Of a DNA stretch of 64,000 bases, positions 28,095 to 55,452 are shown in pieces. Source of the stretch: Sedimentibacter sp. SX930. Its GTDB lineage: Bacteria; Bacillota; Bacilli; Lactobacillales; Aerococcaceae. Position numbers and translations under genes: made by a program. The stretch spans positions 124,001 through 188,000 of the forward strand of contig MUZD01000006.1 of NCBI GenBank assembly GCA_002155105.1, read 5' to 3'. The notes beneath the pieces were generated by a model that made no database searches, was not told the DNA's origin, and saw nothing but the letters and a program-made list of their open reading frames with translations. Numbering within the stretch: the first letter of the stretch is position 1; every line of letters begins with the position of its first letter.

Positions 28095-28218
28095 AGAAAA
28101 GCGGAACGGGTTCGTTCAGCCCTGAAAGAAATTTAGGAAATCGTGCCGACTGAGCATCGTAGAGCGCAATAGGTACGATTTATCTAATTTCCGAAGGGCT
28201 TACCCGTGCAGCTAGACA
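28095..28218. repeat. 124-bp structured dispersed element, copy 1
   Basis: Begins AGAAAAGC and ends GCTAGACA, like the copies at 43243 and 55327. Inside are an outer stem (ACGGGT / ACCCGT, AGCCCT / AGGGCT), the segment GAAATTTAGGAAAT pairing with ATTTATCTAATTTC, the stem AAATCGT / ACGATTT, and the conserved loop TGAGCATCGTAGAGCGCAAT. Similarity to copy 2 continues for about 50 bases beyond the right end. It lies between acpS and cshA. Confidence 0.85.
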
Positions 28219-28312
28219 TCTTTTTAATTGCATGAAACAGCTTGGGAACCTATGTAACACCAACGGTGATGCACTTTTAGCTCAAATATATTAGACTTTT
28301 CAAGCAAATAAG

Positions 28313-28357
28313 AAAAACCTCTTCCCCAATTGGCCTACGCCAGGGGAAGAGGTTTTT
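28313..28357 (-). terminator. terminator after cshA
   Basis: A 15-bp stem (AAAAACCTCTTCCCC / GGGGAAGAGGTTTTT) with U-rich flanks follows the cshA stop by ten bases. Confidence 0.92.
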
Positions 28358-28366
28358 GATCATGAA

Positions 28367-29935
28367 TTAGTCGTTGTTGCTGCGGATAGTGAAGCTATGG
28401 CTGCTTTTTTTAGGTGCGCCGGCACTGCCGCCGCCACGTTTGTCATCATAGCGTTTGCCGCCGGAGCGTGGTTTGCTGTCGCTTGAGCGATTTTTGTTGC
28501 CACTGCGTTCTCCGCTGCGTTCGCCGCTTCCGCGTCTTTCTGATGAACCACGGTTACCTTTGTAGCCGCCGCCGGTGCTCTTACCTTTGTAACCACCGCC
28601 GCCTTTACCTTTTCTTGAAGGCAATGGGCGTTCTGGTGTGATCTTAACAGGAACATCAGTAGCATCTTTAGAAAGACTCTTCAAGAATGCTGCTACCAAA
28701 TCTTCAGCTGTGTGCTCTTCAAGCAAACGAACAGCAGCACGTTGATATTTGTCTGTTTCTGTTTCTTTAACCAATGTTTCCACTTCATCCATAGCTGTTT
28801 TCACTTGGCCACGGAAAGCTTCTTCGTCACTTGGTGGTTGTAATGGAGTGATCGGTTTTTTGGTTAAGTTTTCGATTGTACGCAAGTAATCCATTTCGTT
28901 TGGTGTAACGAAAGTCACTGACATACCTTCTTTACCGGCACGACCAGTACGGCCGATACGGTGAACATAGCTTTCTGGATCTTGAGGGATATCGTAGTTG
29001 TACACGTGTGTAACACCTGTAACATCCAATCCACGAGCAGCAACGTCAGTCGCTACTAAGAAATCCAATTCGCCAGTCTTGAAAGCATTCAATACACTCA
29101 TACGTTTTTGTTGTGTCAAATCGCCATGGATTCCTTCTGCGCGGTAACCGCGTAGTTCCAAACCTTTAGACAATTCATCAACACGACGTTTTGTACGGCC
29201 GAAAACGATAGCCAATTCCGGATTTTGAACATCGAACAAACGAGTCATTGTATCGAATTTTTCAAAGTCTTTACATTTGACGAAATATTGATCAATTAAG
29301 TTAGCTGAAGCGTGAGATGCCTTAATTTTTACGTGTTCTGGAGCATGCATGAATTTAACACCGATTTTTTTGATCTGGTCAGGCATCGTTGCTGAGAACA
29401 ACAATGTTTGACGCTCAGACGGTGTTTCACTAAGGATGCTTTCGATGTCTTCCAAGAAGCCCATGTTCAACATTTCATCTGCTTCATCCAAAACTAGCGT
29501 TTCAATATGATCCAAACGAATTGTTTTGCGTTTGATGTGGTCCAAAAGACGACCAGGTGTCCCAACAATAATTTGCGGTTTGTTTTTTAAAGCGCGAATT
29601 TGACGGCTGATATCTGCTCCACCATAAACAACTTGTACGGATACACGTTTGTCTTTGCCTAAGCGATAAAGTTCTTCTTGTGTTTGAATCGCTAATTCAC
29701 GTGTTGGCGCGATAACAATCCCTTGGATAGCTTTGTTTTCTGTGTTGATTTTTTGCAACATCGGCAATCCAAAAGCAGCTGTTTTACCAGTACCTGTTTG
29801 TGCTTGGCCGATAACGTCTAGTCCTTTGAGCGCCAAAGGAATAGTTTCCGTTTGGATGGGTGTTGCTTCCTCGAAGCCCATTGTCTCAATCGACTGTAAT
29901 AATACTGCATCTAAACCTAATTCTGAAAATTTCAT
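28367..29935 (-). CDS. cshA: DEAD-box RNA helicase CshA
   Basis: A 522-residue ATP-dependent RNA helicase linked to mRNA decay, ribosome assembly and cold growth. Motifs in order: GFEEATPIQ (Q motif), [11 protein letters not shown] (I), PTRELA (Ia), TPGRLLDH (Ib), VLDEADEML (II), SATMP (III), [12 protein letters not shown] (V) and [13 protein letters not shown] (VI). A 90-residue basic tail rich in G, R, S and K (from about 430) is typical of CshA and binds RNA. The ATG at 29935 has AGGAGG upstream. Codon use is biased towards few codons, suggesting high expression. A leader of about 185 bases precedes it. Confidence 0.95.
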
Positions 29936-30126
29936 GTTTCCTCCTAATTTTGAGAAACTAAAATTTAGAGAGTCTTTTCTTTTACCCGTATCTAAATACG
30001 GTTCATAATCTTATAAATAAAAGATAAACCTTTTTTACTTAATCCCTTGAATAGAAAGCTTGATAAATCAAACATTCTGCACTTCGCAGAAAAAACCCTC
30101 TTATTTCTCTATTCTTACCATCAGCA

Positions 30127-30155
30127 ATAATAACACGTTCCGCAAAGTATTACAA
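30127..30155 (-). promoter_or_regulatory. promoter of cshA with long leader
   Basis: TTGTAA and TATTAT are separated by 17 bases on the minus strand. Transcription would begin about 185 bases before the cshA ATG. The leader contains small hairpins TTCTGC / GCAGAA and CCGTAT / ATACGG. Nothing else is recognised in 29936-30339. Confidence 0.65.
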
Positions 30156-30339
30156 ATCATTTTCTCTTAAAATAATGGAATTTCTTACAAAAAAACCTTG
30201 TTGTAAGGATATTTCTAATGAAAATGACAAGTAGTTCTACAATTTACCGACAATTGACAGATGCGCTCCAAATTGGCTGAAAAGGGGATAACCTTGCTTA
30301 TGCGACGACACGACTCATCCAAATCCTTTACATTTCCTA

Positions 30340-31716
30340 TTATACACGCAAAGCGGCCACAACCGCCAATAAATCGGTGCCGAAACTGGATTTGATCAGC
30401 ACTTGATCGGCTTGCTGAAGCTCTGCCTTCAGCTTATCGATCAATGGCGCCTTCTCCCCAACATAATGATAAAGTTTTCCTTCCGGAAAGGCAGACTTTA
30501 AGTTTTCATAAAGAGCGGCCATTTCCGTTCCGTAAAGATAGACCTGATCGAAGTCTGCAGGGGAAATTTCAGCCGCCAAGGCAGCGTGCATTTCAGCAGA
30601 ACGTTCACCCAATTCCCGGATATCCCCGAGCACCGCAATTTTCTTGCCCTCACGCGGTAGATGTGCGAATGAACGCAATACGGCCGTCATCGAAGTCGGG
30701 CTGGCATTGTAGGCATCGTTCAACAGTTGCGAGCCATTTACGCCATCCAACCACTGCGTGCGGTTGGCGGTCAGCTGAAAGGCCGCCAAGGCTTCCTTCA
30801 CTTCGGCGATTGTCATGCCCAACACCTGTGCAGCTGCTAATGCGGCCAAGGCATTCCGGACATTGTAAACACCCAATACAGGGATCTCCAGATCGACATT
30901 CGGATCCAGACTCACATGGAAAGTTGTTCTGGTTTTACCGGGAACAATGGCAAAGGCATAGACCGTATCCGTTTCGTCCGTGCCGAAAGTCAGCTGGCGG
31001 AAGTTGCTTCCCTGAGGCAGCTCTTCGGCGATCAACGGCTCATCACCAGGATAAATGAGCGTCCCTTCCGGCTTCAGCCCCTCCAAAATTTCCAACTTGG
31101 CTTTGGCGATGCCGCGGCGGCTCCCGAGGAACTCCAGATGGCTGTCCCCTATCAACGTGATGATGGCCACATCCGGTTTGGCCAATCGGCTCAACAAGCT
31201 GATTTCACCGAAGTTGCTCATGCCCATTTCAAGCACCAACACTTCAGTGTCTTCCGGCATATCCAGGATGGTCATCGGCATGCCGATTTCATTATTGTAA
31301 TTGCCCTCCGTTTTGTGGACACGGAACCGCGAGGACAGGACGGCCGCCGTCATGTCTTTGGTGGTCGTTTTCCCGTTGCTGCCCGTGATCGCGACCACTT
31401 TTGGTTGGATCATATTCAGGTAGGCTTCCGCCAGTTTTTGCAAAGCCTCTAGCGTGTCATCAACGAGAATGACGGCAATATCTTCAGGCGCTTCCCCTGC
31501 TTCACGGCTCCATAAAGTTGCTGCCGCGCCGTTCTTGATTGCCGATTGGACATAATCATGACCATCCGTTTCCCCCTGCAAAGGCACAAACAAACTGTCG
31601 GGCGTTGCTTTGCGGGAGTCGAAGACAACAGCAGTTATTTCAGCGAAGCGATTAGCGGACGTATAGTCGATCGCTCCGACAGCTTTCACAACATCGATGA
31701 TGCGTAATGGTTTCAT
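30340..31716 (-). CDS. murF: UDP-MurNAc-tripeptide:D-Ala-D-Ala ligase
   Basis: MurF adds D-Ala-D-Ala to the UDP-MurNAc tripeptide, the last cytoplasmic step of the precursor peptide. The 458-residue protein has the three Mur-ligase domains: an N-terminal domain with FDSRKATPDSLFVPLQGE, the ATP loop ITGSNGKTTTKDM, EMGMSNFGEI, and the C-terminal DAYNASPTSM and VLGDIRELGE. ATG at 31716 has GAGGAAC upstream. It follows ddl on the same strand, but a branched hairpin lies between them. Confidence 0.96.
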   Translation of the reverse strand: MKPLRIIDVVKAVGAIDYTSANRFAEITAVVFDSRKATPDSLFVPLQGETDGHDYVQSAIKNGAAATLWSREAGEAPEDIAVILVDDTLEALQKLAEAYLNMIQPKVVAITGSNGKTTTKDMTAAVLSSRFRVHKTEGNYNNEIGMPMTILDMPEDTEVLVLEMGMSNFGEISLLSRLAKPDVAIITLIGDSHLEFLGSRRGIAKAKLEILEGLKPEGTLIYPGDEPLIAEELPQGSNFRQLTFGTDETDTVYAFAIVPGKTRTTFHVSLDPNVDLEIPVLGVYNVRNALAALAAAQVLGMTIAEVKEALAAFQLTANRTQWLDGVNGSQLLNDAYNASPTSMTAVLRSFAHLPREGKKIAVLGDIRELGERSAEMHAALAAEISPADFDQVYLYGTEMAALYENLKSAFPEGKLYHYVGEKAPLIDKLKAELQQADQVLIKSSFGTDLLAVVAALRV

Positions 31717-31764
31717 ATTTGGTTCCTCATTTCCAATTATTTCTCAGAAGCCCGATCTAAAAAA

Positions 31765-31841
31765 GGCCGTCCTTCCCTGGGTTCGCAGCAAGCATTCCAT
31801 GCTTTTGGTGCTGCTGGCGATCAGGGAAATCACGGCCTTTC
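31765..31841 (-). terminator. branched terminator between ddl and murF
   Basis: The outer stem AAAGGCCGT / ACGGCCTTT and the next stem TTCCCTG / CAGGGAA enclose a further small hairpin (CAGCAGCA / TGCTGC region). The minus-strand reading ends in six T. Confidence 0.75.
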
Positions 31842-31846
31842 ATTCA

Positions 31847-32932
31847 TCATTCTACAAATTGATAGGATAGTTTTTCTTCATGGCGTTTTAAAGCCAATTG
31901 GATCAACTCTTCCACCAGATCACTGTACTTCAATCCAGTGTGTTCCCAAAGCAACGGATACATGCTGCGGGAAGTGAAGCCAGGCAAAGTATTGACTTCA
32001 TTAATGTAGATTTCATTGTTTTTGGTCACAAAGAAATCACAACGGCTCAACCCGCTGCCGTCAAGCGCTCGGAAAGCGATCGTTGCATAATTCTGCAATT
32101 TGGCAGTGATTTCTTCCGGTAATTCAGCCGGAATCTGCAGCAGCACTTCTTCATTGCCGTACTTCTCTTCGTAGTCATAGAAATCTTTGGTTTTAACGAT
32201 TTCACCGGGTACGGAGGTATGAACATCGTCATTACCCAATACCGCGATTTCGATTTCACGGGCTTCGATGCCTTGTTCAACGACCACGCGACGGTCATAG
32301 CGGAAAGCCGTTTCGATCGCTGCAGTCAACTCTTCAAGATTCGTAGCTTTAGAAATGCCGACGCTTGAGCCCATATTGGCTGGCTTGATGTACATCGGAT
32401 AAATCAGGCTGCCTTCGCATTGGATAAAGATCTTCTCGCGGTCATTTTTCCAGTCGTTACGGGTAACGGCCACGTAAGGCACTTGCGGCAACCCTGCTTG
32501 TTGGAAAAGATGCTTGCTGACGATTTTGTCCATTCCGCTGGCGCTGGCAAGGACACCACAGCCGACATACGGCATATTAAGGACTTCAAAAAGCCCTTGC
32601 ACCGTTCCATCTTCTCCGTTGGGGCCATGCAATACGGGGAAAATGACAGCATCCTCAGACTGGATGTCTGCAGGGGAAATAAGTTCGCCGTAGGATTTGC
32701 CATCTTGCGAATCAGCAAAACGCTTCTCGGAACCCGGCTCTAAATAAAGGTTCTCAGAGAATGCCACCGGTTCAGAAAGGGATTGCCCTTGAATCCATGC
32801 GCCTGCCTTGGTGATGTAGACGGGCACAACTTCATAATAGTTGAAATAAATCGCCTTTATGATTGAATGTGCTGTCAGGATCGAGATATCGTGCTCAGCG
32901 CTCTTTCCGCCGTAAATCAAATAAATTTTCAT
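31847..32932 (-). CDS. ddl: D-alanine--D-alanine ligase
   Basis: Ddl joins two D-Ala residues for peptidoglycan synthesis. This 361-residue ATP-grasp protein starts MKIYLIYGGKSAEHDISILTA. It has VFPVLHGPNGEDGTVQGLFE, the KPANMGSSVGISKA loop, EIEIAVLGN and the metal site YINEVNTLPGFTSRSMYP. A tyrosine at the position linked to D-Ala-D-Ala (rather than D-Lac) ligases is not confidently assignable by eye. ATG at 32932 has CGGAGGA upstream. It lies next to murF, the next user of its product. Confidence 0.95.
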   Translation of the reverse strand: MKIYLIYGGKSAEHDISILTAHSIIKAIYFNYYEVVPVYITKAGAWIQGQSLSEPVAFSENLYLEPGSEKRFADSQDGKSYGELISPADIQSEDAVIFPVLHGPNGEDGTVQGLFEVLNMPYVGCGVLASASGMDKIVSKHLFQQAGLPQVPYVAVTRNDWKNDREKIFIQCEGSLIYPMYIKPANMGSSVGISKATNLEELTAAIETAFRYDRRVVVEQGIEAREIEIAVLGNDDVHTSVPGEIVKTKDFYDYEEKYGNEEVLLQIPAELPEEITAKLQNYATIAFRALDGSGLSRCDFFVTKNNEIYINEVNTLPGFTSRSMYPLLWEHTGLKYSDLVEELIQLALKRHEEKLSYQFVE

Positions 32933-33080
32933 CGAGAAATCCTCCGAATTTTTTGATAACTACCTTAATCAAGAAACATTGTACCATATTTATTTTTTAC
33001 CTAAAACGATTTTTGTGAAAAGTGGCTTGGCCGCCCTCTTGCTGGGGCCAAGATGGCTTATTCCGGCTCAATGGATACAG

Positions 33081-33107
33081 AAAAAGCCTAAGTTCCGGCT
33101 TAGGCTT
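33081..33107 (-). terminator. terminator after the gene at 33108
   Basis: AGCCTAAG and CTTAGGCT form a stem with a six-base loop, followed on the minus strand by TTTTT. A second hairpin (CTTGGCC / GGCCAAG, 33026-33054) lies just downstream without a clear T run. Confidence 0.85.
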
Positions 33108-33857
33108 TCAATCAAAGTCTATGTCAATTTTCCACTCATTGCGTTCCATGTCATAACAGATGGTGCCCACCGAATCCTTTTCGTTGAAACGGCCGCCGAT
33201 GCTGGCGTAACGGTCTTCCGCGATGAACAAGGGGATGCAGTATGTATTTTCTTCGATGCTCATCTGCCTGAAGGAGATTACGGCCCCTTCTTTGAAGATC
33301 GGAATGAATTCCTTCACGCGTTCGATCGGGAATGGCGCAATTTCTTTGTCTTTCTGATAAAAGCGCTTCTTCTCATTCACTTTTTCCTTCAACTTGACGG
33401 TGATGGCTTCGGCGAACAGCTCATGGAATTGTTCCAGGTAGCGATAGTACATTTTTATGAAGCCATTCGGCAACGTGAGGTAGATGTAGTTGTTTTGTAA
33501 TTTATAATAGAACGGTGAGTGCAGGTGCGTATGCGCATGGGCGATATACAGGATCTCGGATATTTCGATTGGGGTGAGGAGATGCAACATATCCACATTC
33601 ACAAAATCAATCCATTTTCCCATAGCGGTTTGATTGTCCGTCCCTTTTTGGAAGAACGCTTTTACATTTTCTTGGCCTTTGATCACCTGAAAACCGGTAT
33701 GATTATCATATGTTCCAATACTTTTTCTTCCATCCACCAACAATAAGTTTTCCGGAAGCTTCCGGGCTAACTTTGTGTAATCCTTCACCGCTATCCCTTT
33801 GCTCAAAACATAATTGCTGACTGTTTCATAATGAACATATAACATATCTTCGCTCAT
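33108..33857 (-). CDS. uncharacterised protein
   Basis: A 249-residue soluble, mixed-charge protein I do not recognise. It begins MSEDMLYVHYETVSNYVLSK and has a His-rich stretch IAHAHTHLHSPFYYK near the middle, a possible metal or active site. The C-terminus (SIGGRFNEKDSVGTICYDME) is beta-rich. There is no signal peptide or membrane helix. ATG at 33857 has GGGGGG 7 bases upstream and a terminator follows the stop, so it is a real monocistronic gene. It lies between htpX and ddl with no informative partner. Confidence 0.75.
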   Translation of the reverse strand: MSEDMLYVHYETVSNYVLSKGIAVKDYTKLARKLPENLLLVDGRKSIGTYDNHTGFQVIKGQENVKAFFQKGTDNQTAMGKWIDFVNVDMLHLLTPIEISEILYIAHAHTHLHSPFYYKLQNNYIYLTLPNGFIKMYYRYLEQFHELFAEAITVKLKEKVNEKKRFYQKDKEIAPFPIERVKEFIPIFKEGAVISFRQMSIEENTYCIPLFIAEDRYASIGGRFNEKDSVGTICYDMERNEWKIDIDFD

Positions 33858-34070
33858 GAATGTTCCCCCCCTTTCCGAAATATCCCTTATTATCATTCTA
33901 CTACGTGCAAATCCGATTAAGGTATCAGTACCATGTTAATATTATTACAAATCCGTATCTTTTACAAAGATAATTTGCCTTTTTCCCCTATTTTTTTTCA
34001 TAGCAACAAATTGAAAGGGTTTTCACATCAGAAACCGAACTTTATTTGTACAATTTGCATAAAATGTCCG

Positions 34071-34097
34071 AAAAAAGAAGCTATTTACATAGCTTCT
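34071..34097 (-). terminator. terminator enclosing the htpX stop codon
   Basis: AGAAGCTAT and ATAGCTTCT form a 9-bp stem whose loop is GTAA, part of the htpX stop TAA at 34085-34087, followed by six T on the minus strand. The last codons of htpX encode the left arm. Confidence 0.85.
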
Positions 34098-34990
34098 AAT
34101 CGTTTGATTCGGTTTGCCGTTGAAGGGTGGGTCGAAAACAAGCCATCATTTTCTGCTTCGCCCTCCTTCATCCGTTTGAAAGGATTCACAATATAGAGCG
34201 AGGCACTGGCTGCATTCGCTGCCTCCATCGGGTCGCTTGTCGCTATTTTGATTAAAGCGGATTTCAGTCCTTCCGGATTGCGTGTGAACTCAATCGCACT
34301 CGCATCAGCCAGATACTCCCGGTTGCGGGAGAGTGCCAAGCGGATGATGGTGGCCACAAAGGGCGAAAGAACCAGGATCAGCAAGGAAAGGATCAGCAAT
34401 ATGATGCCCGCCCCTCCGCTGTTATCGCTTCTGCGTCGGCGACCGCCACCCCAAAACATCATCCGGGTGCTGAACTGGGCCAAAAACGCAATCAGCCCCG
34501 CTATCGCCAAAGCGACAGTGGATAAGCGGATGTCATAGTTGCGGATATGCGCGAATTCATGCGCCAAGACCCCAGTCAGCTCTTCCCGGTTCAGTTTCTT
34601 CAGCAATCCCGTCGTCACGGCGACAGATGCTTTTTCCGGCGAATTTCCGGCCGCAAACGCATTCGGGCTTTCATCCTCGATGATGAAGATTCTCGGAAAA
34701 GGCAACCGTGTCACGATAGTCATTTCCTCGACGATATTCCAGAGCATCGGGTATTGCGCCTTATCCGTTATTTCCTTGGCATTGTTCAGGCTCATGACCA
34801 CTTGTGTGGATTGTGCAACCATGATGACGACGTAGGCCAATCCGATGATCAAAGCAAGCGCAACACCGGACAAAGCGTTGTCCCAATTCAGATAGCCGAT
34901 GGCCGCCCCCAATGCCGCAAATAGGAGAAAGAATAAGAATACGATCAGCACGGTGCGCCGTTTATTCTGCTCAATTTGTTGATGGAGCAA
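34085..34990 (-). CDS. htpX: membrane zinc metalloprotease HtpX
   Basis: A 301-residue M48 protease for membrane protein quality control. The zinc site is VLAHEFAHIRNYD, with the third ligand in NREYLADASAIEF. Four hydrophobic segments flank the catalytic domain (about 17-37, 42-60, 160-180, 198-218). The start is TTG at 34990 (GGTGAG 5 bases upstream), giving LHQQIEQNKRRTVLIVF, which matches the usual HtpX N-terminus; no suitable ATG exists. It follows lemA by 36 bases; lemA-htpX is a common pair. Confidence 0.95.
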   Translation of the reverse strand: MLHQQIEQNKRRTVLIVFLFFLLFAALGAAIGYLNWDNALSGVALALIIGLAYVVIMVAQSTQVVMSLNNAKEITDKAQYPMLWNIVEEMTIVTRLPFPRIFIIEDESPNAFAAGNSPEKASVAVTTGLLKKLNREELTGVLAHEFAHIRNYDIRLSTVALAIAGLIAFLAQFSTRMMFWGGGRRRRSDNSGGAGIILLILSLLILVLSPFVATIIRLALSRNREYLADASAIEFTRNPEGLKSALIKIATSDPMEAANAASASLYIVNPFKRMKEGEAENDGLFSTHPSTANRIKRLEAM

Positions 34991-35026
34991 AGGTACTCAC
35001 CAACTTTCCGTCTAAATCATATTTTC

Positions 35027-35584: not shown

Positions 35585-35655
35585 TTTGCTCACAGCTCCT
35601 TTTCTCTCTCACCGACCTAACGGCTAACCTAGACAAATTTCCGTCTACACCATTC

Positions 35656-35684: not shown

Positions 35685-35766
35685 AAAATAGACTAACTGC
35701 CTCTTCGCCGAAAAGTGTTGGCTTATGTGATATTATGAAGGAAAGAAAATCAGATGAGGTGTAATT

Positions 35767-43242: not shown

Positions 43243-43366
43243 AGAAAAGCGAAACGGGTTCGTTCAGCCCTGAAAGAATTTTAGGAAATCGTGCCGTATG
43301 AGCATCGCAGAGCGCAATAGGTACGATTTATCTAAATTCCGAAGGGCTTACCCGTGTAGCTAGACA
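43243..43366. repeat. 124-bp structured dispersed element, copy 2
   Basis: Nearly identical to copy 1 at 28095 from AGAAAAGC to GCTAGACA, with the loop TGAGCATCGCAGAGCGCAAT and the stem AAATCGT / ACGATTT. Similarity extends to about 43425 (ATGCATGAAACA, GGTGATGC). It lies between pyrG and fba. Confidence 0.88.
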
Positions 43367-43468
43367 ACTTTTTTATATGCATGAAACATTTTACAAATCT
43401 ATAAAACACCTGCGGTGATGCGCAATTATTTTTATACTTCCGTATAATATAGCAAATGAATGTCCCGC

Positions 43469-47430: not shown

Positions 47431-47458
47431 AGGGAATGACAGAAAGAGGCGATGCGAT

Positions 47459-48844
47459 TTGAGTACACACTATACCGCGGAATTATTGCCGAAAGAAAAA
47501 GTATTTCGTGACCCTGTCCATGACTACATCCATATCCAATACCGGATCATCATGGACCTGATCAATACACCTGAATTCCAGCGTTTGCGCCGGATCAAGC
47601 AATTAGGGACCTCTTCCTATACTTTCCATGGCGCTGAACACTCCCGCTTCAATCATTCTTTGGGAGTCTACGAAATCGCCCGCCGCATCTGCGATAAATT
47701 TGTCCGGAATTACCCCAGCAAAGAGCCTGGGGACGGCCTTTGGGATGATAGGGAGCGGCTCGTGACGCTTTGCGCCGCTTTACTGCATGACATCGGCCAT
47801 GGACCGTTCTCGCATACCTTCGAAAAAATATTCGATACGGACCATGAAGCCATCACAATCGAGATCATTACCTCCCCTGATACCGAAATCAATCGGATCC
47901 TGCAGCAGATCGGTCCTGATTTTCCGAATCAAGTGGCCGCCGTCATCGCCAAAACCTACGATAATCCGCAAGTGGTGCAGCTGATTTCCAGCCAGATCGA
48001 TGCGGACCGGATGGATTACCTGCTGCGCGACGCCTATTATTCCGGCGTCACTTACGGCAATTTCGACCTGACGAGGATTCTGCGTGTCATCCGGCCTTAC
48101 GAGAACGGCATCGCCTTTGACATTTCCGGCATGCATGCGGTGGAGGATTATATCGTCAGCCGCTATCAGATGTATATGCAGATCTATTTCCATCCGGTTT
48201 CCCGCGGCATGGAGGTCGTTCTCAGCCATCTGCTGAAGCGCGCGAAGGATGTCTATTTGGATGAACAAGCCGAATTCCGCCATACCGCCACATTCCTGAC
48301 GCCGTTCTTCAAGCAGACATGGACGCTGAAAGATTACTTGCGTTTGGATGATGGGGTCCTGACTACCTACTTCAACCATTGGCTTGATGAAAAGGATCCG
48401 ATTCTGAACGATCTTGCCCATCGCTTCGTCAACCGCCATCCTTTCAAATCGGTCCGCTACACAAAAGGACGCGATGATGCTACACTGGAACACATGAGTG
48501 CACTCGTTGAGCGCATGGGCTTCAACAGGAATTACTACACCGCAGTAAACAACAGTTATGACCTGCCGTATGATCTTTACCGGCCGCATCAGGCCACGAC
48601 CCGGACCCAGATTGAGCTTGTCCAGAAAAATGGCAGTTTCCTGGAGCTTTCGCAAGCAAGTTCGATTGTTTCAGCTTTGACGGGAAAGGTCCGCGGGGAT
48701 GAGCGTTTCTACTTCCCGCGTGAAATTACCCATGGCGACGAGGAAGCGGGCATCAATCTGTTCGAGTCCCTTTCGCAGGAATTTTCAGCTTTTTTCGAGA
48801 ATGACGAAATTTTACCAACCCAACAAACAGGAGGCACACTATGA
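47459..48844 (+). CDS. HD-domain phosphohydrolase (YwfO-like)
   Basis: A 461-residue HD protein of the dNTPase-like YwfO family. The metal motif is in GAEHSRFNHSLGVYEIARRI and LCAALLHDIGHGPFSHTFE, with a later QIDADRMDYLLRDAYY. The start is TTG at 47459, 9 bases after AGAGG; in-frame ATG codons further upstream lie in lipL. Relatives hydrolyse nucleoside triphosphates, but a specific substrate cannot be read. It overlaps the next gene by four bases. Confidence 0.88.
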   Translation: MSTHYTAELLPKEKVFRDPVHDYIHIQYRIIMDLINTPEFQRLRRIKQLGTSSYTFHGAEHSRFNHSLGVYEIARRICDKFVRNYPSKEPGDGLWDDRERLVTLCAALLHDIGHGPFSHTFEKIFDTDHEAITIEIITSPDTEINRILQQIGPDFPNQVAAVIAKTYDNPQVVQLISSQIDADRMDYLLRDAYYSGVTYGNFDLTRILRVIRPYENGIAFDISGMHAVEDYIVSRYQMYMQIYFHPVSRGMEVVLSHLLKRAKDVYLDEQAEFRHTATFLTPFFKQTWTLKDYLRLDDGVLTTYFNHWLDEKDPILNDLAHRFVNRHPFKSVRYTKGRDDATLEHMSALVERMGFNRNYYTAVNNSYDLPYDLYRPHQATTRTQIELVQKNGSFLELSQASSIVSALTGKVRGDERFYFPREITHGDEEAGINLFESLSQEFSAFFENDEILPTQQTGGTL

Positions 48845-49653
48845 GCATCAAATTAATCGCCATCGACATCGACGGCACCTTGGTGGACAAGGAATTCAAA
48901 ATCACCCCGGAAGTAAAGGCAGCCATCACGGAAGCGCGTGAACAAGGGGTCAAAATCGTGCTCTGCACCGGCAGACCGTTCCCTGGCGTCAAACGCTACA
49001 TCAAAGAATTGGATTTGGATCAGGATGAAGATTACGTCATCACCTACAACGGCTCTTTGGTTCTGTCTACCGCAACAAATGAAGTGCTTGTTTCGCACAC
49101 GTTGGATTACAGCGACTTCGTCAGAATCAACGAATTGGCCGATAAGTTCAACGTGCATACGCACGGGATCGACAATGAAGCCATCTATACCGCAAACAAA
49201 GACATCAGCATCTTCACGACACGCGAGTCTTTCATTACGACGATGCCGATCCGTTATCGCTCGTTGGCTGAATTGCCGGAAGATAAACTGTTCACGAAAA
49301 TCATGTTCATCGACCAGCCAGAGTTGTTGGATATCTTGATTCCAGCGATTCCAGCGCAGTTCCATGAAGACTATGTGATTGTCCGCAGCGAACCGCATTT
49401 CCTGGAAGTGCTGAACAAAGACGCTGGTAAAGCCAGCGCTTTGGCCGAATTGGCTGCATTATTGAATATCGACGCGGAAAACATCATGGCCATCGGCGAC
49501 AACGAGAACGACCTGAGCATGATCGAATACGCAGGCGTCGGCGTAGCGATGGGCAATGCCGTCGACAAAGTGAAGGAAGCCGCGGATTTCATCACCAAAT
49601 CAAACGCTGAAAGCGGCGTAGCCCACGCAATCAGAACTTACTTGAATAAATAA
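48841..49653 (+). CDS. Cof-type HAD-IIB phosphatase
   Basis: A 270-residue haloacid-dehalogenase phosphatase of the Cof/YidA group. Motif I is AIDIDGTLVDKEFKI, motif II VLCTGRPFPGV, the lysine of motif III is in the DAGKASAL region, and motif IV is MAIGDNENDLSMIEYAGVGVAMGNA. A C2B cap sits between motifs II and III. These act on sugar phosphates or flavin precursors; the substrate is not deducible. ATG overlaps the HD stop as ATGA, so translation is coupled. Confidence 0.93.
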   Translation: MSIKLIAIDIDGTLVDKEFKITPEVKAAITEAREQGVKIVLCTGRPFPGVKRYIKELDLDQDEDYVITYNGSLVLSTATNEVLVSHTLDYSDFVRINELADKFNVHTHGIDNEAIYTANKDISIFTTRESFITTMPIRYRSLAELPEDKLFTKIMFIDQPELLDILIPAIPAQFHEDYVIVRSEPHFLEVLNKDAGKASALAELAALLNIDAENIMAIGDNENDLSMIEYAGVGVAMGNAVDKVKEAADFITKSNAESGVAHAIRTYLNK

Positions 49654-49670
49654 ACCGGAAAAAGGTATGC

Positions 49671-49702
49671 ATGGGGCTGTCTCATTGAGACAGCCCCATT
49701 AT
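49671..49702 (+). terminator. terminator after the lipL-HD-HAD genes
   Basis: A perfect 13-bp stem (ATGGGGCTGTCTC / GAGACAGCCCCAT) with a three-base loop is followed by TATTTT. Confidence 0.92.
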
Positions 49703-49731
49703 TTTAATCAAGCGTGAAGCAGGTGCATGAT

Positions 49732-50610
49732 ATGGATAACCATTCTGCAGGGTTCGGCAAAACCCTCCTAAGGATAAGAAAAAACAAACGCTATTCCCAA
49801 CAATACATGGCGGAAAACAAAATCCACCAGTCGACCTATTCCAAGATGGAAAGGGATCTGATCGAGCCGACGCTGGGAAACTATCGGCATCTTTTGAGCA
49901 GGCTGGACATGTCCGATGAAGAACTCCAGTACATCATGAATGATTACAATCATTCCGAAAAGGAACAGCTGCTGACGGCTTTCATGAATCTCTCTTTCAA
50001 CGATGTCGCATTGTTGGAGGAACTTCGCGAAAAAGCCCGGAAATATCTGAAAGCACATGCCGATTACATCATCGCTGACATCATCCATCTGACGGATGCG
50101 CTGATCATTATGGCAAAAACCGGAGACGTTGTGGGCGCCCGTAAAGAAGTACGGCCTGTATGGGAAAGGCTCGAGAAGCTTGATGGCTGGTATCTGGTCG
50201 AATTAAGGATGATCAATGCGATGCTGTTTCTGTTCCCTATCGACGAAGCCATCCTGATTTCCGGGACCGCATTGGCGCAGATACAAAAATACGCCGGTCA
50301 TCCCTACGCAAGCAAAATCGCCGTCTCCTTACGCTACAACCTGTGCTTGTTGCTGTTGAAGAACGGGCGTTACGCAGAGACGATCACCCGCATCAATGAA
50401 CTGATCCCAGCTGCAAAGGAAGCAGGCTCCTACCGGCATCTATGTGTCTGCTACCTCAGGAAAGGCTTCGCCTTAGCGAAGACAGGCAATCTCGAAGGCC
50501 AGCTGCTGATCGACCAGGCCTTCCGCTTGATCGAAGCAGCGGACGACCAGGCCTTCAAAGCCAATCTCAAAAATGAATACAACCTTCTGGAAGAGGCGGC
50601 CTCTAGTTGA
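49732..50610 (+). CDS. Rgg/MutR-like transcriptional regulator
   Basis: A 292-residue protein with an N-terminal XRE helix-turn-helix (FGKTLLRIRKNKRYSQQYMAENKIHQSTYSKMERDLIEP, residues 6-45) and a C-terminal helical repeat region of about 220 residues. This matches Rgg/GadR/MutR regulators, many of which bind short hydrophobic peptides. ATG at 49732 has AGGTG 6 bases upstream. A terminator overlaps the stop codon. Downstream, on the same strand, are a small membrane protein and a 14-residue peptide gene, which may be its targets. Confidence 0.85.
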   Translation: MDNHSAGFGKTLLRIRKNKRYSQQYMAENKIHQSTYSKMERDLIEPTLGNYRHLLSRLDMSDEELQYIMNDYNHSEKEQLLTAFMNLSFNDVALLEELREKARKYLKAHADYIIADIIHLTDALIIMAKTGDVVGARKEVRPVWERLEKLDGWYLVELRMINAMLFLFPIDEAILISGTALAQIQKYAGHPYASKIAVSLRYNLCLLLLKNGRYAETITRINELIPAAKEAGSYRHLCVCYLRKGFALAKTGNLEGQLLIDQAFRLIEAADDQAFKANLKNEYNLLEEAASS

Positions 50611-50624
50611 GGTCGTCTTTTTGC
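50592..50624 (+). terminator. terminator overlapping the Rgg-like stop
   Basis: AGGCGGCCTC pairs with GAGGTCGTCT (G-U allowed) around the stop codon and is followed by TTTTT. Confidence 0.7.
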
Positions 50625-50762
50625 ATACATGAGATACCTAATTATGCTTATAGGAATATTTCGTGGAAGGACGAACCATCTGTATTAAAATGAAAGCAAC
50701 CATGGGAAAACTGTCCTGACAATTCCCGAAATGACCATTTTTTCAAGGAAGGGGGGAAGTCC

Positions 50763-51077
50763 ATGAATCCAAAAAAATGCAACTTATGTGCTTATATATT
50801 GGGTTCCGCTTGCCTGATCGGAATAGCCCGGTATCCGGAAGTGCCTACAAATTGGTGGCTCACAATCGGCATATGCAGCGGTCTCTTGTTTATTTCCAGC
50901 AACTGCATGGAATCCACGCAACATTGGACTTTCCTTGGCATCGATGTCTTGAATCTGATCGTGCTGGCCTTGCTTATTCAGATCCTTCCGCCAAGTTTGG
51001 GACTGGCTTTGAATGTCGTTGTCCTCTTGGCAATCTTCCTACTTCTCTATGTCAAAAGTACCTTTTACGAAAAATAG
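50763..51077 (+). CDS. small membrane protein of unknown function
   Basis: A 104-residue protein with three or four hydrophobic segments (about 8-22, 28-46, 57-75 and 79-97). I recognise no family. It begins MNPKKCNLCAYILGSACLIG, and a Cys is embedded in the first segment. AAGGAAGGGGG precedes the ATG. It follows the Rgg-like regulator by 152 bases, with a possible -10 (TATTAAAAT) near 50682. It is followed by the 14-codon ORF and a terminator, so the three could form a regulator-controlled cassette. Confidence 0.7.
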   Translation: MNPKKCNLCAYILGSACLIGIARYPEVPTNWWLTIGICSGLLFISSNCMESTQHWTFLGIDVLNLIVLALLIQILPPSLGLALNVVVLLAIFLLLYVKSTFYEK

Positions 51078-51140
51078 CTGCTTTTGTATTCATTGTTTCC
51101 GGTCGCAAGCTTGCCTGTACTGTGAAAGGGGGCATCACCC

Positions 51141-51185
51141 ATGAATTGGATCCGTCTGATCATCGGCGATATATGGTTTCTGTAG
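51141..51185 (+). CDS. candidate 14-residue hydrophobic peptide
   Basis: A tiny ORF encoding MNWIRLIIGDIWFL, with AAAGGGGG 8 bases before its ATG, the strongest ribosome site in this stretch. The peptide is hydrophobic with one Arg and one Asp, and it has two Trp. It lies 63 bases after the small membrane protein gene and just before a terminator. Near an Rgg-like regulator such peptides can be signals; a toxin-like or leader role is equally open. Coding is not proven. Confidence 0.45.
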   Translation: MNWIRLIIGDIWFL

Positions 51186-51198
51186 CAAATCGGTTACG

Positions 51199-51246
51199 AA
51201 AAAAATAAGCCAAGGTTGGGGTTTTCATTCCCGCCTTGGCTTATTT
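51199..51246. terminator. bidirectional terminator near 51.2 kb
   Basis: AAATAAGCCAAGG pairs with CCTTGGCTTATTT; A and T runs on both sides let it end both the plus-strand cassette and the minus-strand tautomerase gene. Confidence 0.88.
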
Positions 51247-51256
51247 GATGGAATCC

Positions 51257-51445
51257 TTAAGCTTTTTCGCCTATGAATTCTCCATTTTTGGTCAAATGTT
51301 GTTTCGAAATCTCATTCAGGATCACGTGCACGCTTTCCTTCGATACATTGGCATTTTTTACGACAGCATCCACGACATCGCGCATCAACGCTTGTTTCTG
51401 CTCGTCGGTTCTGCCTTCCAGCAATTCGATGTGAACATATGGCAT
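51257..51445 (-). CDS. 4-oxalocrotonate tautomerase family protein
   Basis: A 62-residue tautomerase beginning MPYVHIELLEGRTDEQKQAL; after Met removal, Pro1 is the catalytic base of the family. The spacing to the hydrophobic VHVILNEIS strand fits the family. Such proteins are hexamers of small subunits acting on keto-enol substrates. ATG at 51445 has AGAGGG upstream. No catabolic operon is adjacent, so the substrate is unknown. Confidence 0.92.
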   Translation of the reverse strand: MPYVHIELLEGRTDEQKQALMRDVVDAVVKNANVSKESVHVILNEISKQHLTKNGEFIGEKA

Positions 51446-51517
51446 TTCAATTCCCTCTTTTCGCTTTATGGTTTCGACTCAGGTCCATTTTATCAATGTT
51501 TGGATTGGATTGCACCT

Positions 51518-52675
51518 CTATTTGGAGGCGATGTAAGTCTTCAGGCGTTCAGCCGCCTCGGCGACCATCTCCGTGCTCAACGCATAGCTCATGCGGACAT
51601 AGCCTTCTCCGCCTGGTCCGAAGATCGATCCAGGCAGCATGCCTACTTTGGCGTTCATGCCGATTTCGCGGCAGAAAGCCTTGTCGTCCGTACCGAATTT
51701 CACCGGAATCTTCGCAAAAGCATAGAAGGCCCCTTTCAGCGCGGGAACCTCAAAGCCGGCTTCCTGCAAAGCGGGAACGAGGATGTTTCTTCTTTTTTCA
51801 TATTCGGAACGCATCTTTTCGACATCCGGCGCGCTGTTGCGGAACGCCTCCTCGGCAGCCCGGTTGGAAACCGTAACGCCAGTCGTCACCAACTGCTGGT
51901 GGGCCAAGAACAAGGTCTTCATCCATTTCGCATCCGCTGCGAGCACACCGACGCGCCAGCCTGTCATCGCAAAGGCTTTCGAAGCACCTTGGAACAGGAT
52001 CGTGCGGTCGCGCAGCATGGTCGCGATCGAAGTATGCTTTTCCCCGTAGGTGATTTCGCTGTAGATTTCATCGCTCAAAACAAAGATATCGTACTGCTTG
52101 ATTGCGTCGGCCAAAGCCGTCAGTTCTTCTTTTGTATAGGTAGCTCCCGTCGGATTGCTCGGATAGTTCAAAAAGATCGCTTTGACATTTTTGTTTTCGG
52201 CCATCGTCTTGTGCAGCAACTCCGGTGTCATCAAAAAGCCGGTGTCGGAAGTATCGACGAGGATGCACTCGCCGCGGTTCAGTTCCACTGCATAACTGTA
52301 TAATGGAAAGAACGGCGACGGGATGATGACCTGATCGCCCGGATTCAACAAGCCGAAAGCCGCGGCAAATAGCCCTTCAGTGGCACCCACAGTCATCACG
52401 ATCTCCGTTTCAGGATCGTAGTGCAGATCATATTGCTTTTCCAGGAATTCGCTGACTGCTTTCCGGACGCCGATTTCGCCGGAAGTGTGCGCATAATGGG
52501 AGGCATTGTCCTCGATCGCCTTGATGGCGGCCTGCTTGACGTTTTCGGGCATATCAAAATCCGGTTCCCCGATCGTCATCGGAATGCAGCCTTCCACACT
52601 GCGGAAAAGTTCATCAAATTCGCGGATCTGCGAAGGTTTGATGCGGGAAAATAGTTCATTCGTTGTCAAAGCCAT
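51518..52675 (-). CDS. PLP-dependent aminotransferase class I/II
   Basis: A 385-residue fold-type I aminotransferase. It has TIGEPDFDMPENVKQAA, the FLNYPSNPTGATYTKEEL segment, LSDEIYSEITYG and the PLP lysine in GASKAFAMTGWRVG. These match the PatA/aspartate aminotransferase-like group that acts on aromatic or N-acetyl-diaminopimelate substrates; the exact substrate cannot be read. ATG at 52675 has GGAGG upstream. It is transcribed away from the divergent methionine operon, and might serve methionine or keto-acid metabolism, which is inference. Confidence 0.9.
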   Translation of the reverse strand: MALTTNELFSRIKPSQIREFDELFRSVEGCIPMTIGEPDFDMPENVKQAAIKAIEDNASHYAHTSGEIGVRKAVSEFLEKQYDLHYDPETEIVMTVGATEGLFAAAFGLLNPGDQVIIPSPFFPLYSYAVELNRGECILVDTSDTGFLMTPELLHKTMAENKNVKAIFLNYPSNPTGATYTKEELTALADAIKQYDIFVLSDEIYSEITYGEKHTSIATMLRDRTILFQGASKAFAMTGWRVGVLAADAKWMKTLFLAHQQLVTTGVTVSNRAAEEAFRNSAPDVEKMRSEYEKRRNILVPALQEAGFEVPALKGAFYAFAKIPVKFGTDDKAFCREIGMNAKVGMLPGSIFGPGGEGYVRMSYALSTEMVAEAAERLKTYIASK

Positions 52676-52900
52676 GTATTACATCCTCCATCCAAGTTTG
52701 CATCACTGCCGGAAAAACTATCGGCACATGCTTTTTTATAGATCATATCCTTTTTCTCACATAATTTTAATATTAATCAGAATACGACTATTCAGTCCAT
52801 AAGTCAAGCGTACCATGGCATCTCCCAATTAAAGAGAGCGTTTTCCATTTCGAAAAATGAGAAATCTCGAAAATTTTATGTTTCTTTTTAATCTTAACTG

Positions 52901-52929
52901 TTGACAAAGAAAGCGGGATTGGGTATATT
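52901..52929 (+). promoter_or_regulatory. promoter of the methionine operon
   Basis: A perfect TTGACA and TATATT are separated by 17 bases, just upstream of the first T-box. Confidence 0.9.
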
Positions 52930-52944
52930 AATCACATCAAAAAC

Positions 52945-53246
52945 ACAGCGAAGAGAAGAGTAAATCATTCCACTCCTTCATTAGAGAGCTTGGTCAGGTG
53001 AAAGCAAGCAAGGAAGTGTTGGTTGAAGATGGTCTCAGAGTGGCTTGTCCGAAGAGTAACTTCTTAAGACAGGACGGGAACGCCCGTTACAGTGTCTCAG
53101 TATGACTTGCAGCAATATGCAGGCGCACTGGCTAAGGCGGATGCAGCGATGCTTTCGTGAACTAAGGTGGTAACACGAGATCGAACTTTGACCTCTCGTC
53201 CTTATCTTGCGCATAGATGATGCAGCAGATAAGGCGAGAGTTTTTT
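52945..53246 (+). promoter_or_regulatory. T-box riboswitch 1 (Met specifier)
   Basis: The stem I region contains AGAGAGCTTGGTCAGGTGAAAG, and the specifier loop GAAGATGGTCTC offers ATG at 53029-53031. The antiterminator core AAGGTGGTAACACG is at 53164-53177. The terminator pairs CTCTCGTCCTTATC with GATAAGGCGAGAG (53193-53240) and ends in six T. Uncharged tRNA-Met would prevent termination. Confidence 0.93.
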
Positions 53247-53282
53247 GATTTTATGATAAAATGTAAACGCAAGGAAGAGGAA

Positions 53283-53551
53283 AGTAAAAATCGAAACGTA
53301 TCACAGCGAGCCTGGATGGATGAGAACAGGTATACGGAACGGTTTTGAAGATGGCCTCGGAGCGGGAAGGATGAGCTGCACAAGCGGTAAATCCTTCAAG
53401 GGAGCACCCTTTATCGTGTACGAGTGAAGCAAGCCTTCACTCATGGAGGAATCCTGCCGTGAGGGGGATTCGAACAAAGGTGGTAACACGAAGCGTCCGC
53501 ATTCGTCCTTAACGTCATAATTTTTTGATGTAGGATGGATGCTTTTTTTAT
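53283..53551 (+). promoter_or_regulatory. T-box riboswitch 2 (Met specifier)
   Basis: A second T-box directly follows the first. The AGCGAGCC stem I region, specifier GAAGATGGCCTC with ATG at 53351-53353, and core AAAGGTGGTAACACG at 53476-53490 are clear. The terminator pairs GCATTCGTCCT with AGGATGGATGC and ends in seven T, just before metN. Confidence 0.93.
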
Positions 53552-53568
53552 TAGAGGAGGAAAGATAC

Positions 53569-54645
53569 ATGATCAGTCTACAGGATATCTCAGTGACTTT
53601 TAAAACTGACAAAAACAAAGCCATCCATGCCGTACAGCATGTTTCGTTGGAAGTCGATAAAGGCGACGTCTACGGCATCGTCGGATACAGCGGCGCCGGC
53701 AAAAGTACATTAGTAAGGACCATCAATCTTCTGCAGCGTCCGTCCGAAGGAAAAGTCATCGTGAGCGGAAAAGACATGATGGCATTGAACGACAAGGACT
53801 TGCGTGAGTCGCGCAAAAAAATCGGGATGATTTTCCAGCATTTCAACCTGATGCGCTCCCGCACCATTCACGACAACGTCGCATTTCCCTTGAAGAATTC
53901 TTCCTTAAGTAAACAGGAAATCCACGACAAGGTAACGGAACTTCTTTCATTAGTGGGGTTGTCCGAAAAAGCCAAAGCTTACCCTTCCCAATTATCCGGG
54001 GGACAAAAGCAGCGTGTGGCCATCGCCCGCGCCTTGGCTAATGACCCGGAAGTGCTGCTTTGCGACGAAGCGACCAGCGCTTTGGATCCGAAGACGACTT
54101 CTTCGATACTGGCTCTGTTGAAAGAGCTGAACAAAAGATTGAATCTGACGATCGTCATCATCACCCATGAGATGCAGGTCGTGAAGGAAATCTGCAACAA
54201 AGTGGCTGTGATGGAAGACGGTGGCGTGATCGAGTACGGCTCGATTCTGGACATCTTCACGAAGCCGCAGAACCAATTGACGAAGGACTTCATCGATACA
54301 GCAACGCATGTCGAACACGGCATCGAGACAGTCATCACCCACCCTACCATCCTGAATCTGAACGAACATGATGTGCTGACAAAGCTTTCATTCGTCGGCG
54401 GTTCCACAGGCGAACCACTCATCGCCAAACTGGCCAATACGTTCAATGTCCAAGGCAACATCCTCTTCGGCAACGTCGAGATACTGCAGGACACGCCAGT
54501 AGGCACCCTGCTCCTCGTCCTGAGCGGGACACCCGAAGCGATCGCGAAAGCCGTCCGCTACCTGCAGGACAATGGCGTGACGGTGGAGATCATCACCGCT
54601 GAAATCATCGCCGAAAAGAAAAATAAAGGAGGCGACGAAGAATGA
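53569..54645 (+). CDS. metN: methionine ABC transporter ATP-binding protein
   Basis: A 358-residue ABC ATPase that powers methionine import. Walker A GYSGAGKST, the Q-loop IGMIFQHFNLM, signature LSGGQKQRVAIARAL and Walker B VLLCDEATSALDPKT are present. A C-terminal NIL domain (about 275-355) gives feedback inhibition by methionine in E. coli MetN. ATG at 53569 has AGAGGAGG 8 bases upstream. It is controlled by two Met T-boxes and overlaps metI by four bases. Confidence 0.97.
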   Translation: MISLQDISVTFKTDKNKAIHAVQHVSLEVDKGDVYGIVGYSGAGKSTLVRTINLLQRPSEGKVIVSGKDMMALNDKDLRESRKKIGMIFQHFNLMRSRTIHDNVAFPLKNSSLSKQEIHDKVTELLSLVGLSEKAKAYPSQLSGGQKQRVAIARALANDPEVLLCDEATSALDPKTTSSILALLKELNKRLNLTIVIITHEMQVVKEICNKVAVMEDGGVIEYGSILDIFTKPQNQLTKDFIDTATHVEHGIETVITHPTILNLNEHDVLTKLSFVGGSTGEPLIAKLANTFNVQGNILFGNVEILQDTPVGTLLLVLSGTPEAIAKAVRYLQDNGVTVEIITAEIIAEKKNKGGDEE

Positions 54646-55322
54646 ACACATTCATGACAACCTTTCTCCCTAACGTCTCTGAGATTTGGGATGAAGTGCT
54701 TCTGAGCACATGGGAAACCTTATATATGACACTCATTGCCGGACTGATCGCCGGTGGGCTGGGCGTCATCCTGGGGGTCATCTTACTGGTCACAGAAGAT
54801 GGCGGCATCCTGGAGAACAAACACCTGTACAACGTTCTCGATAAGCTGGTCAACATCTTCCGGTCGCTGCCTTTCATCATCCTGATGGCACTGATCGTAC
54901 CGTTCACCCGCTTCGTGGTCGGCACTTCGATCGGAACGACCGCATCGATCGTACCGCTAGTTGTAGCGACCGTTCCCTTCTATGCCCGTCAGATCCAAAA
55001 TGCCTTGGTTGAAGTCGATCCCGGCGTCATCGAGGCGGCCCAATCAATGGGTGCCAGCCCTTGGGAAATCATCTTCCGCGTCTACCTGAAAGAAGGCTTG
55101 GCCGGCATCATCCGCGTGTCATCCGTAACGATCATCAACCTGATCGGTTTGACGGCAATGGCAGGAGCCATCGGCGGCGGCGGATTGGGTAACCTGGCCA
55201 TCACCCGCGGCTATAACCGATTCCAGAACGACGTGACCTTGGTCGCAACCATCATCATCCTGATCATCGTATTCATCAGCCAAGCCATCGGAAATGCCTT
55301 GGTGAAGAAAGTCAGCCATTAA
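54642..55322 (+). CDS. metI: methionine ABC transporter permease
   Basis: A 226-residue permease with five hydrophobic segments and the EAA loop VEVDPGVIEAAQSMGASPWEIIFRVYLKEG that docks on MetN. The C-terminal GGLGNLAITRGYNRFQ is typical of MetI. The ATG overlaps the metN stop as ATGA. A structured 126-bp element separates it from metQ1. Confidence 0.96.
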   Translation: MNTFMTTFLPNVSEIWDEVLLSTWETLYMTLIAGLIAGGLGVILGVILLVTEDGGILENKHLYNVLDKLVNIFRSLPFIILMALIVPFTRFVVGTSIGTTASIVPLVVATVPFYARQIQNALVEVDPGVIEAAQSMGASPWEIIFRVYLKEGLAGIIRVSSVTIINLIGLTAMAGAIGGGGLGNLAITRGYNRFQNDVTLVATIIILIIVFISQAIGNALVKKVSH

Positions 55323-55326
55323 AAAA

Positions 55327-55452
55327 AGAAAAGCGTTCCAAGCCCGCTTTGCCTCGAAAGAAATTTAGGAAATCTGGCCCTGAATGAGCATCGCAGAGCG
55401 CAATGGGTCAGATTTATCTAATTTCCGAGAGGAAGGCTTGGAACGCTAGACA
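55327..55452. repeat. 126-bp structured dispersed element, copy 3
   Basis: Starts AGAAAAGC and ends GCTAGACA like copies 1 and 2. It keeps GAAAGAAATTTAGGAAAT, the loop TGAGCATCGCAGAGCGCAAT and ATTTATCTAATTTCCGA. The outer stem is a different but perfect pair (AGCGTTCCAAGCC / GGCTTGGAACGCT), and the inner stem is AAATCTG / CAGATTT instead of AAATCGT / ACGATTT. It lies between metI and metQ1 and may process or partly terminate the mRNA. Confidence 0.88.

Follow-up and report, generated by a model that had tools for sequence, protein, structure and literature searches.

The 64,000-nucleotide stretch of DNA analysed here (the window; positions 124,001 to 188,000 of contig MUZD01000006.1, deposited as Sedimentibacter sp. 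SX930 and referred to below as Trichococcus genome G000) contains three copies of a small structured element. This element belongs to a family with at least 34 copies in the 3.13 Mb genome, its insertion sites are polymorphic even within the species, and relatives in other Bacilli have the same fold, yet different letters. In our view, each copy is probably a non-autonomous mobile repeat with a hairpin core that is copied in trans, i.e. a repeat of the BOX/ERIC/bcr1 kind with a class-wide distribution.

The three copies are located at 28095-28218, 43243-43366 and 55327-55452 of the window, and all of them start with AGAAAAGC and finish with GCTAGACA, just as the first-pass annotation, made from the window sequence alone, had read them; the exchange of CGT/ACG for CTG/CAG in the inner stem and the exchange of the whole outer stem are real as well. 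The letters described as common to all copies are mostly so, except that copy 1 reads TGAGCATCGTAGAGCGCAAT, i.e. T and not C, and copies 1 and 2, which had been treated as identical, differ in that copy 2 has GAATTTTAGGAAAT pairing with CTAAATTCC, a further compensatory change. Likewise, a length of 124 bp describes only the core, as the insertion at copy 1 comprises 216 bp because a 3' domain of about 90 nt comes after GCTAGACA. A loop pattern with one free position has 33 exact matches in G000 and its reversed control none, and a covariance model built from 19 simple copies (R1) finds 34 matches at 33 places, one match being the opposite strand of another. R1 adds the divergent copy L060 to the loop list, giving 34 distinct copies in all, so that the expectation of many copies in the genome holds. 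The genome-wide counts given below cover the 33 fetched copies and leave out L393 (contig C34), a two-module copy that was missed in the R1 genome scan and scores 48.6 bits on its own. None of the 33 copies contains a closed open reading frame (ORF) of more than 57 amino acids.

Empty sites in relatives, which had been suggested as a test of mobility, are readily found. At the locus of copy 1 the flanks are matched and the element is missing in all ten other Trichococcus genomes examined, including G089 from the same species (the incomplete genomes G006 and G007 were left out of this comparison). In nine of the ten the flanks meet directly, leaving a gap of 216 bp that covers the element, and in G009 the region has diverged. 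The junction in G089 reads CACCATAAGAAAAACC, and the window genome has 216 bp between CACCATAA and GAAAAACC. Copies 1, 2 and 3 are all missing in G089, G003 and G005. Genome-wide, 23 of the 32 comparable G000 sites are occupied in G089, one is partial and eight lack the element; the corresponding numbers (present/partial/absent) are 4/2/26 of 32 in G003, 3/2/26 of 31 in G005 and 2/0/6 of eight hand-picked sites in G002. G003 and G005 have 19 and 7 R1 matches of their own. Since 8 of 32 sites lack the element within the species and 26 of 32 do so in G003, we regard it as a recently active mobile repeat and not as a conserved RNA gene. As the relatives share the same uninterrupted site, the direction appears to be gain rather than precise loss. 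At three loci, L302, L272 and L303, tiny left-hairpin remnants, GAAA(A)GCTGAACGG(A/G)TTCGTTCAGC or similar, stand alone where G000 holds a full element; these may have been left by deletions or may be units that move on their own.

The first-pass annotation had proposed a folded RNA or a mobile palindromic element, and both parts find support, mobility in the empty sites and structural constraint in the covariation. On the + strand copies 1, 2 and 3 fold as RNA with -45.4, -45.4 and -54.2 kcal/mol (z -4.61, -4.19 and -5.97), and none of the 200 dinucleotide shuffles made per copy reaches the same stability; the reverse strands fold slightly less well (-40.7, -36.8 and -48.6; z -3.81, -3.26 and -4.80). 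Among 37 cross-genus copies, from which a second covariance model (R2) was built, the covariation score is 0.609 as compared to 0.193 for shuffled copies, 92.8% of the cells pair (70.0% when shuffled, at most 54.3% in slid registers) and 208 cells are changed on both sides, versus 58.6. Outside this training set, 39 class-wide matches (37 distinct) were fitted to R2: 97.1% of the cells pair versus 66.3%, slid registers reach at most 42.4%, both-sided changes occur at all 25 pairs, and the 37 distinct copies, aligned to the model, score 0.752 versus 0.207 for shuffled ones. Thus, looking for covariation across more copies, as had been advised, strengthens it from the cross-genus to the class-wide, model-aligned set. 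One G.U pair is nearly fixed, being found in 46 of 48 cross-genus rows and in 79 of 79 rows of Trichococcus loci. At pairing positions of the cross-genus rows G.U outnumbers A.C by 73 to 13, or by 27 to 13 without the fixed column, and in Trichococcus there are 9 versus 5 column-level events outside the fixed columns; this asymmetry lends weak support to the + strand as the folded strand. With both strands folding and G.U only mildly favoured over A.C outside the fixed columns, selection may act either on the RNA or on the DNA in its single-stranded form.

The core is a bulged hairpin of about 120 nt with the fixed ends GAAAAGC and GCTAGMCA, i.e. GCTAG(A/C)CA. GAAAAGC is followed by an outer stem, which is of one of two types. 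Then come an internal loop, whose GAnA and CGA sides are conserved, and, further towards the loop, a stem with a single bulged base per side and the nearly invariant G.U pair. On the + strand of the window, the cores of copies 1 (28096-28218; GAAAAGC to GCTAGACA) and 2 (43244-43366) have stem type A (CGGGTT/ACCCG), copy 2 differing from copy 1 by the compensatory change GAATTT/AAATTC, and the core of copy 3 (55328-55452) has stem type B (CCAAGCC/GGCTTGG); all three are matched by R1, copy 1 with 149.6 bits. L018 and L019 combine outer type A with inner type B, i.e. the stems are shuffled. In Trichococcus the element measures 120-220 bases, and the core is often followed by the 3' domain (GATGCATGAAACA...CACC-GGTG...GATGCACTTTT...TTTATAnnTTCCTATATGT; about 90 nt), which, judged by GATGC at +45 to +90, is present in 65 of 116 copies, a set that is distinct by left flank, comes nearly entirely from Trichococcus (one copy is L072) and counts orthologues with differing flanks separately. 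The 3' domain of copy 1 (GCATGAAACA...CACC/GGTG...GATGCACTTTT) extends from 28219 to 28307 within the 216-bp insertion and is missing together with the core in 10 of 10 relatives. ATAA is found left of this copy at 28092-28095 and again at 28308-28311, and it is single in the nine directly joined empty sites; ATAAGAAAAACC (28308-28319) constitutes the right junction and the A-tract of a terminator-like hairpin, AAAAACCTCTTCCCC...GGGGAAGAGGTTTTT. In copy 2 the 3' domain extends from 43367 to 43457, ending in ...TAGCAAAT, its right limit being taken from the empty sites, and copy 3 has a short 3' tail (55453-55480, right limit approximate) with most of the domain missing.

Optional modules of 60-70 nt are inserted near the loop in 12 of the 33 copies, the other 21 carrying none: nine copies have a module of about 66 nt in the 5' arm, four have one of about 60 nt in the 3' arm, two of them having both, and one copy carries a third kind. 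In L074 (1628-1710; genome G022) a second copy begins behind the first, and its middle, CAACGTTCTCTGTC, resembles the start of the Trichococcus 5'-arm module; judged by this likeness, the modules may be older than the genus.

R1 has matches in 20 of 60 relatives, including all 12 Trichococcus genomes, and, in the order, in 89 of 395 genomes and 20 of 80 genera, the g24 matches there being doubtful. Sister species can differ in this respect, Granulicatella seriolae contrasting with genomes of its genus that are free of the element. At E <=1e-4, R2 reaches 69 of 398 genomes and 24 of 146 genera of the class, 39 of the 69 lying outside the order; R2 E-values are rough, and the range figures rest on sampled genomes without decoy runs. 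Single R1 matches in genus g24 (e.g. L079, E ~1e-6) were first taken as chance matches in coding sequence, and the R1 rows for g24 may include false matches; the genus is kept in the class tally because R2 gives several matches in most g24 genomes, some of them (L373, L389, L391) with full architecture. Head-to-tail arrays with a spacing of 114-124 nt are found at L075, L076, L077, L078, L094, L096, L102, L104 and L162 as well as at L374, L379, L382, L383 and L388. L382 (1501-2238), from one Bacilli genome, contains six head-to-tail units of 123 nt, three of which have identical scores, suggesting recent growth of the array. Plasmid and phage collections queried with Trichococcus, Enterococcus-like and Bacilli-type copies gave no match. 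Nine Streptococcus agalactiae prophages carry a weak relative (72% over 65% of a Streptococcus-type query), and the one tested scores 28.8 bits with R2, equal to the doubtful L079; in Streptococcus phage Javan29 (L392, 1501-1603) it is not annotated and is found between the tape-measure gene and the gene after it, and the eight other prophages give similar matches.

The sites themselves follow a pattern. By simple ORF calls, 24 of 33 copies have a left neighbour in sense; for 21 of these 24 the distance from its stop codon to GAAAAGC is 0-15 bp, and for eight of them it is exactly 0. The exceptions are L018, located 59 bp from the stop codon, and L012 and L011, whose called frames enter the element. 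At L011 (G000, contig C7, around 22 kb) relatives without the element differ in the upstream frame, and the protein seems to gain a new C-terminus from the element. The left triplet is TAA in 49 of the 116 copies, and a hairpin of at least 12 pairs follows within 200 nt downstream in 19 of 33 copies, as compared to 0-6 in five shuffles. GAAAA stands at the junction of the empty site in at least one relative at eight sites (L004, L008, L010, L017, L018, L020, L024, L026); the left end of the element, GAAAA, resembles these junctions and, on the other strand, a small terminator. As to orientation, the statement that all copies lie between co-oriented genes applies to the three window copies, but not genome-wide, where 13 copies lie between ++ and five between -- neighbours, 11 between convergent and four between divergent genes. 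The five copies antisense to both neighbours include window copies 1 and 2. Copy 1 is flanked by a DEAD-box helicase gene and an ACPS-family gene, copy 2 by the genes for CTP synthase and fructose-bisphosphate aldolase, and copy 3 by genes for a BPD_transp_1 permease and an NlpA lipoprotein; the neighbours of these three copies, the only ones classified, have no common pathway.

Thus, we propose that a trans-acting enzyme spreads copies of the element to new sites and that this enzyme probably recognizes the folded hairpin, since the letters of the stems turn over while pairing, bulges and internal-loop letters stay. New copies would settle in A-rich DNA, typically between a stop codon (TAA), which they would follow closely, and a terminator-like A-tract with its hairpin, the left end facing the stop codon. 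They would also land beside old copies and thus make head-to-tail arrays, as the left end of the element, GAAAA plus hairpin, resembles the target. Most copies are predicted to be transcribed within a 3' untranslated region (UTR), where they may alter mRNA decay or read-through. A more far-reaching version, which we put forward only tentatively, is that of a Bacilli-wide superfamily defined by fold and not by sequence, in which an enzyme as yet undescribed would read a bulged hairpin, as RNA or single-stranded DNA, and place it in the A-tracts of terminators; as the left end of the hairpin mimics such tracts, arrays would be seeded.

Several observations weigh against a repeat that is mobilised in trans. 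Neither the co-occurrence of Y1 transposases or reverse transcriptases (RTs) nor a right-end search has revealed a mobilising enzyme. Y1_Tnp is present in 29 of 60 relatives, including 11 of 12 Trichococcus genomes with at least a partial match (in G000 one full-length match and one in two pieces). It is absent in G008, G044, G054 and G058, and in the doubtful G053, and present in the remainder of the 20 element-bearing relatives. RVT_1 is found in 26 of 60 relatives and is absent in the element-bearing G002-G007, G009, G019, G054 and G059, i.e. in 10 of 20 (11 with G053), G006 and G007 being only 63% and 51% complete. Neither Y1 nor RT is thus a consistent partner of the element, although the enzyme may have been lost later. 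The search for an autonomous copy covered five genomes and used the right end, not the left; among the 30 of 43 matches read, none is an insertion sequence, 28 being short elements, one an isolated right end and one truncated where its contig stops. In the full form there is no terminal inverted repeat, the left end being GAAAAGC and the right end ...TTCCTATATGT; only the core is palindromic. A consistent target duplication is missing, too: ATAA is duplicated at L007 and L026, ATGA at L024 and about ATAA at L002, L023 has a 7-bp duplication (AGGCTAA) where the same site in G008 (L061) has TAA only, the inspected junctions of L003 and L028 have none, and copy 2 (L027) has no duplication and has seemingly lost about 6 bp of target. 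In a permutation test on 65 full copies there is no excess of duplications for k=4-6 (31 versus 30.8 at k=4) and a slight one at k=7 (6 versus 1.7, permutation maximum 6). Given the irregular junctions and the lack of excess at k=4-6, we claim no fixed duplication. Moreover, the placement bias could result from selection against harmful insertions, i.e. from survival and not from target choice.

The strong covariation, the nearly invariant G.U pair and the 24 of 33 copies in sense behind stop codons would also be expected of a regulatory or small RNA family whose copies are kept for a host function, e.g. mRNA stability or attenuation, and are not chiefly selfish. Its sites, however, lack conservation (26 of 32 are without the element in G003 and 8 of 32 in the same species), nine of the 33 copies do not follow a gene in sense, and no common pathway links the genes next to the three window copies, making this explanation distinctly improbable. 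The persistence of the fold despite sequence turnover, the A-runs adjoining the right end, the variable duplications of 0-7 bp with one small target loss and the preference of G.U over A.C in the cross-genus rows outside the fixed column are in line with a retroelement resembling short interspersed nuclear elements, i.e. a transcribed hairpin RNA that is reverse-transcribed into T-rich nicks behind terminators. As RVT_1 is absent in half of the element-bearing relatives (including the two incomplete genomes), right ends without a core are rare (one of 30 loci read plus one cut by a contig end) and G.U is not clearly favoured within Trichococcus, we regard such a route as quite unlikely.

Two kinds of DNA transposition have to be considered as well. 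A non-autonomous IS200/IS605 or REP-type element would be moved by a Y1 (HUH) transposase acting on the single-stranded hairpin, and the bulged hairpin, the ends without inverted repeats, the fixed left-end motif, the tiny remnants of the left hairpin (GAAA(A)GCTGAACGGGTTCGTTCAGC) that some sites contain and the presence of Y1 in nearly all Trichococcus genomes fit this mechanism. We nevertheless give it little credence, as Y1_Tnp is absent in four element-bearing relatives, among them G008 with its 21 model matches, and as short target duplications, which occur at several junctions, are not expected for Y1 transposition. The size, the lack of a closed ORF above 57 amino acids, the intergenic placement, the polymorphism and some duplications of the A(T/G)A type would suit a classical miniature inverted-repeat transposable element (MITE), i.e. 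an internal deletion derivative of a DDE insertion sequence. Its ends, however, should be inverted repeats, which they are not, no transposase was seen between the ends (28 of the 30 right-end loci read are short elements, 13 of 43 matches being unread), and conservation of the fold between genera is unexpected for a simple deletion derivative, so that a MITE, too, is unlikely. We thus favour a hairpin repeat copied in trans, as described above.

The element shares the traits of small interspersed mobile repeats, i.e. a length of about 100-250 bp, an intergenic location, many copies, the lack of a sizeable ORF, polymorphism and a conserved fold. It is thus of a known kind, the small interspersed structured repeats, and is set apart by its range, the conservation at the level of the fold, the missing end repeats and the terminator-like target. 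ERIC sequences are palindromes of about 127 bp with optional insertions of about 70 bp at fixed sites and are transcribed in 3' regions. They share with the Trichococcus element the palindromic core and the optional insertions, but are proteobacterial, probably differ in their letters and generate TA duplications. REP/BIME elements are extragenic palindromes that are based on hairpins, as is the core described here.

The following comparisons are made by description. REP palindromes measure 20-40 bp and contain a GTAG/CGTC tag (PMC3733652), and they are linked to Y1 transposases (PMC2817692), which do not track the Trichococcus-type element. BOX, RUP and SPRITE of Streptococcus pneumoniae are small intergenic repeats that fold as RNA, are polymorphic between strains and are over-represented between convergent genes, BOX being modular (boxA-boxB-boxC, with boxB optional) (PMC3049150), and in these respects they resemble the Trichococcus element. 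All three hardly occur outside pneumococcus and S. mitis, S. suis having related BOX-type elements, and in BOX and RUP there are inverted repeats at the ends as well as target duplications (PMC3049150); the Trichococcus-type fold, in contrast, spans the Bacilli, has swapped stems and lacks inverted repeats at its ends. In the Bacillus cereus group, bcr1-bcr18 are mobile repeats of 100-400 bp, often in UTRs, and bcr1, with an average of 39 copies per strain, is tied to a TTTAT motif (PMC6542083, PMC3446304) that resembles, on the other strand, the ATAA at the junctions of the Trichococcus element; the bcr repeats are described as specific to this group, unlike the Bacilli-wide fold. As bcr3 correlates with mRNA half-life (PMC3446304), an effect of the Trichococcus element on mRNA decay is plausible. 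Efa-1 of Enterococcus faecalis is an intergenic, structured repeat of 163 bp with 65 (18) copies in a Lactobacillales genome and is described as two adjacent stem-loops (PMC2267715), as opposed to the single bulged hairpin core of the Trichococcus element; it may or may not be a member of the same family.

No description of the element, its motifs or its kind was found among the literature matches listed, most subscription papers lying beyond the coverage of the search. The comparison with Rfam called for in the first-pass annotation yields no family match: at gathering threshold nothing in the window falls on the element, copy 1 at E up to 10 gives four chance-level matches only (E 6 to 8, far below gathering), some overlapping it, and the loci of 18 relatives at E up to 0.1 give four weak matches, including Ref70 in L078 (27-119), all outside the elements. 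Upstream of the ABC transporter genes that house copy 3 the window contains two adjacent T-box leaders (RF00230, 97.7 and 96 bits; 52939-53513), and at 26143-26188 on the - strand there is a match to the PreQ1 riboswitch (39.9 bits, gathering 39).

Small palindromic repeats are usually known per species or group, and what moves them is seldom clear; here, one fold joins 24 of 146 sampled Bacilli genera. The 3' domain, the inserted modules, the stop-codon and terminator context and the class-wide range extend what had been seen in the window. Taken together, compensatory changes in all helices, recent insertions and the corresponding empty sites provide a handle on the mobilising enzyme and on whether it reads the shape of a nucleic acid. 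At the 3' ends of genes in these genomes the element is a feature that has escaped annotation, and it is a candidate for inclusion in Rfam.

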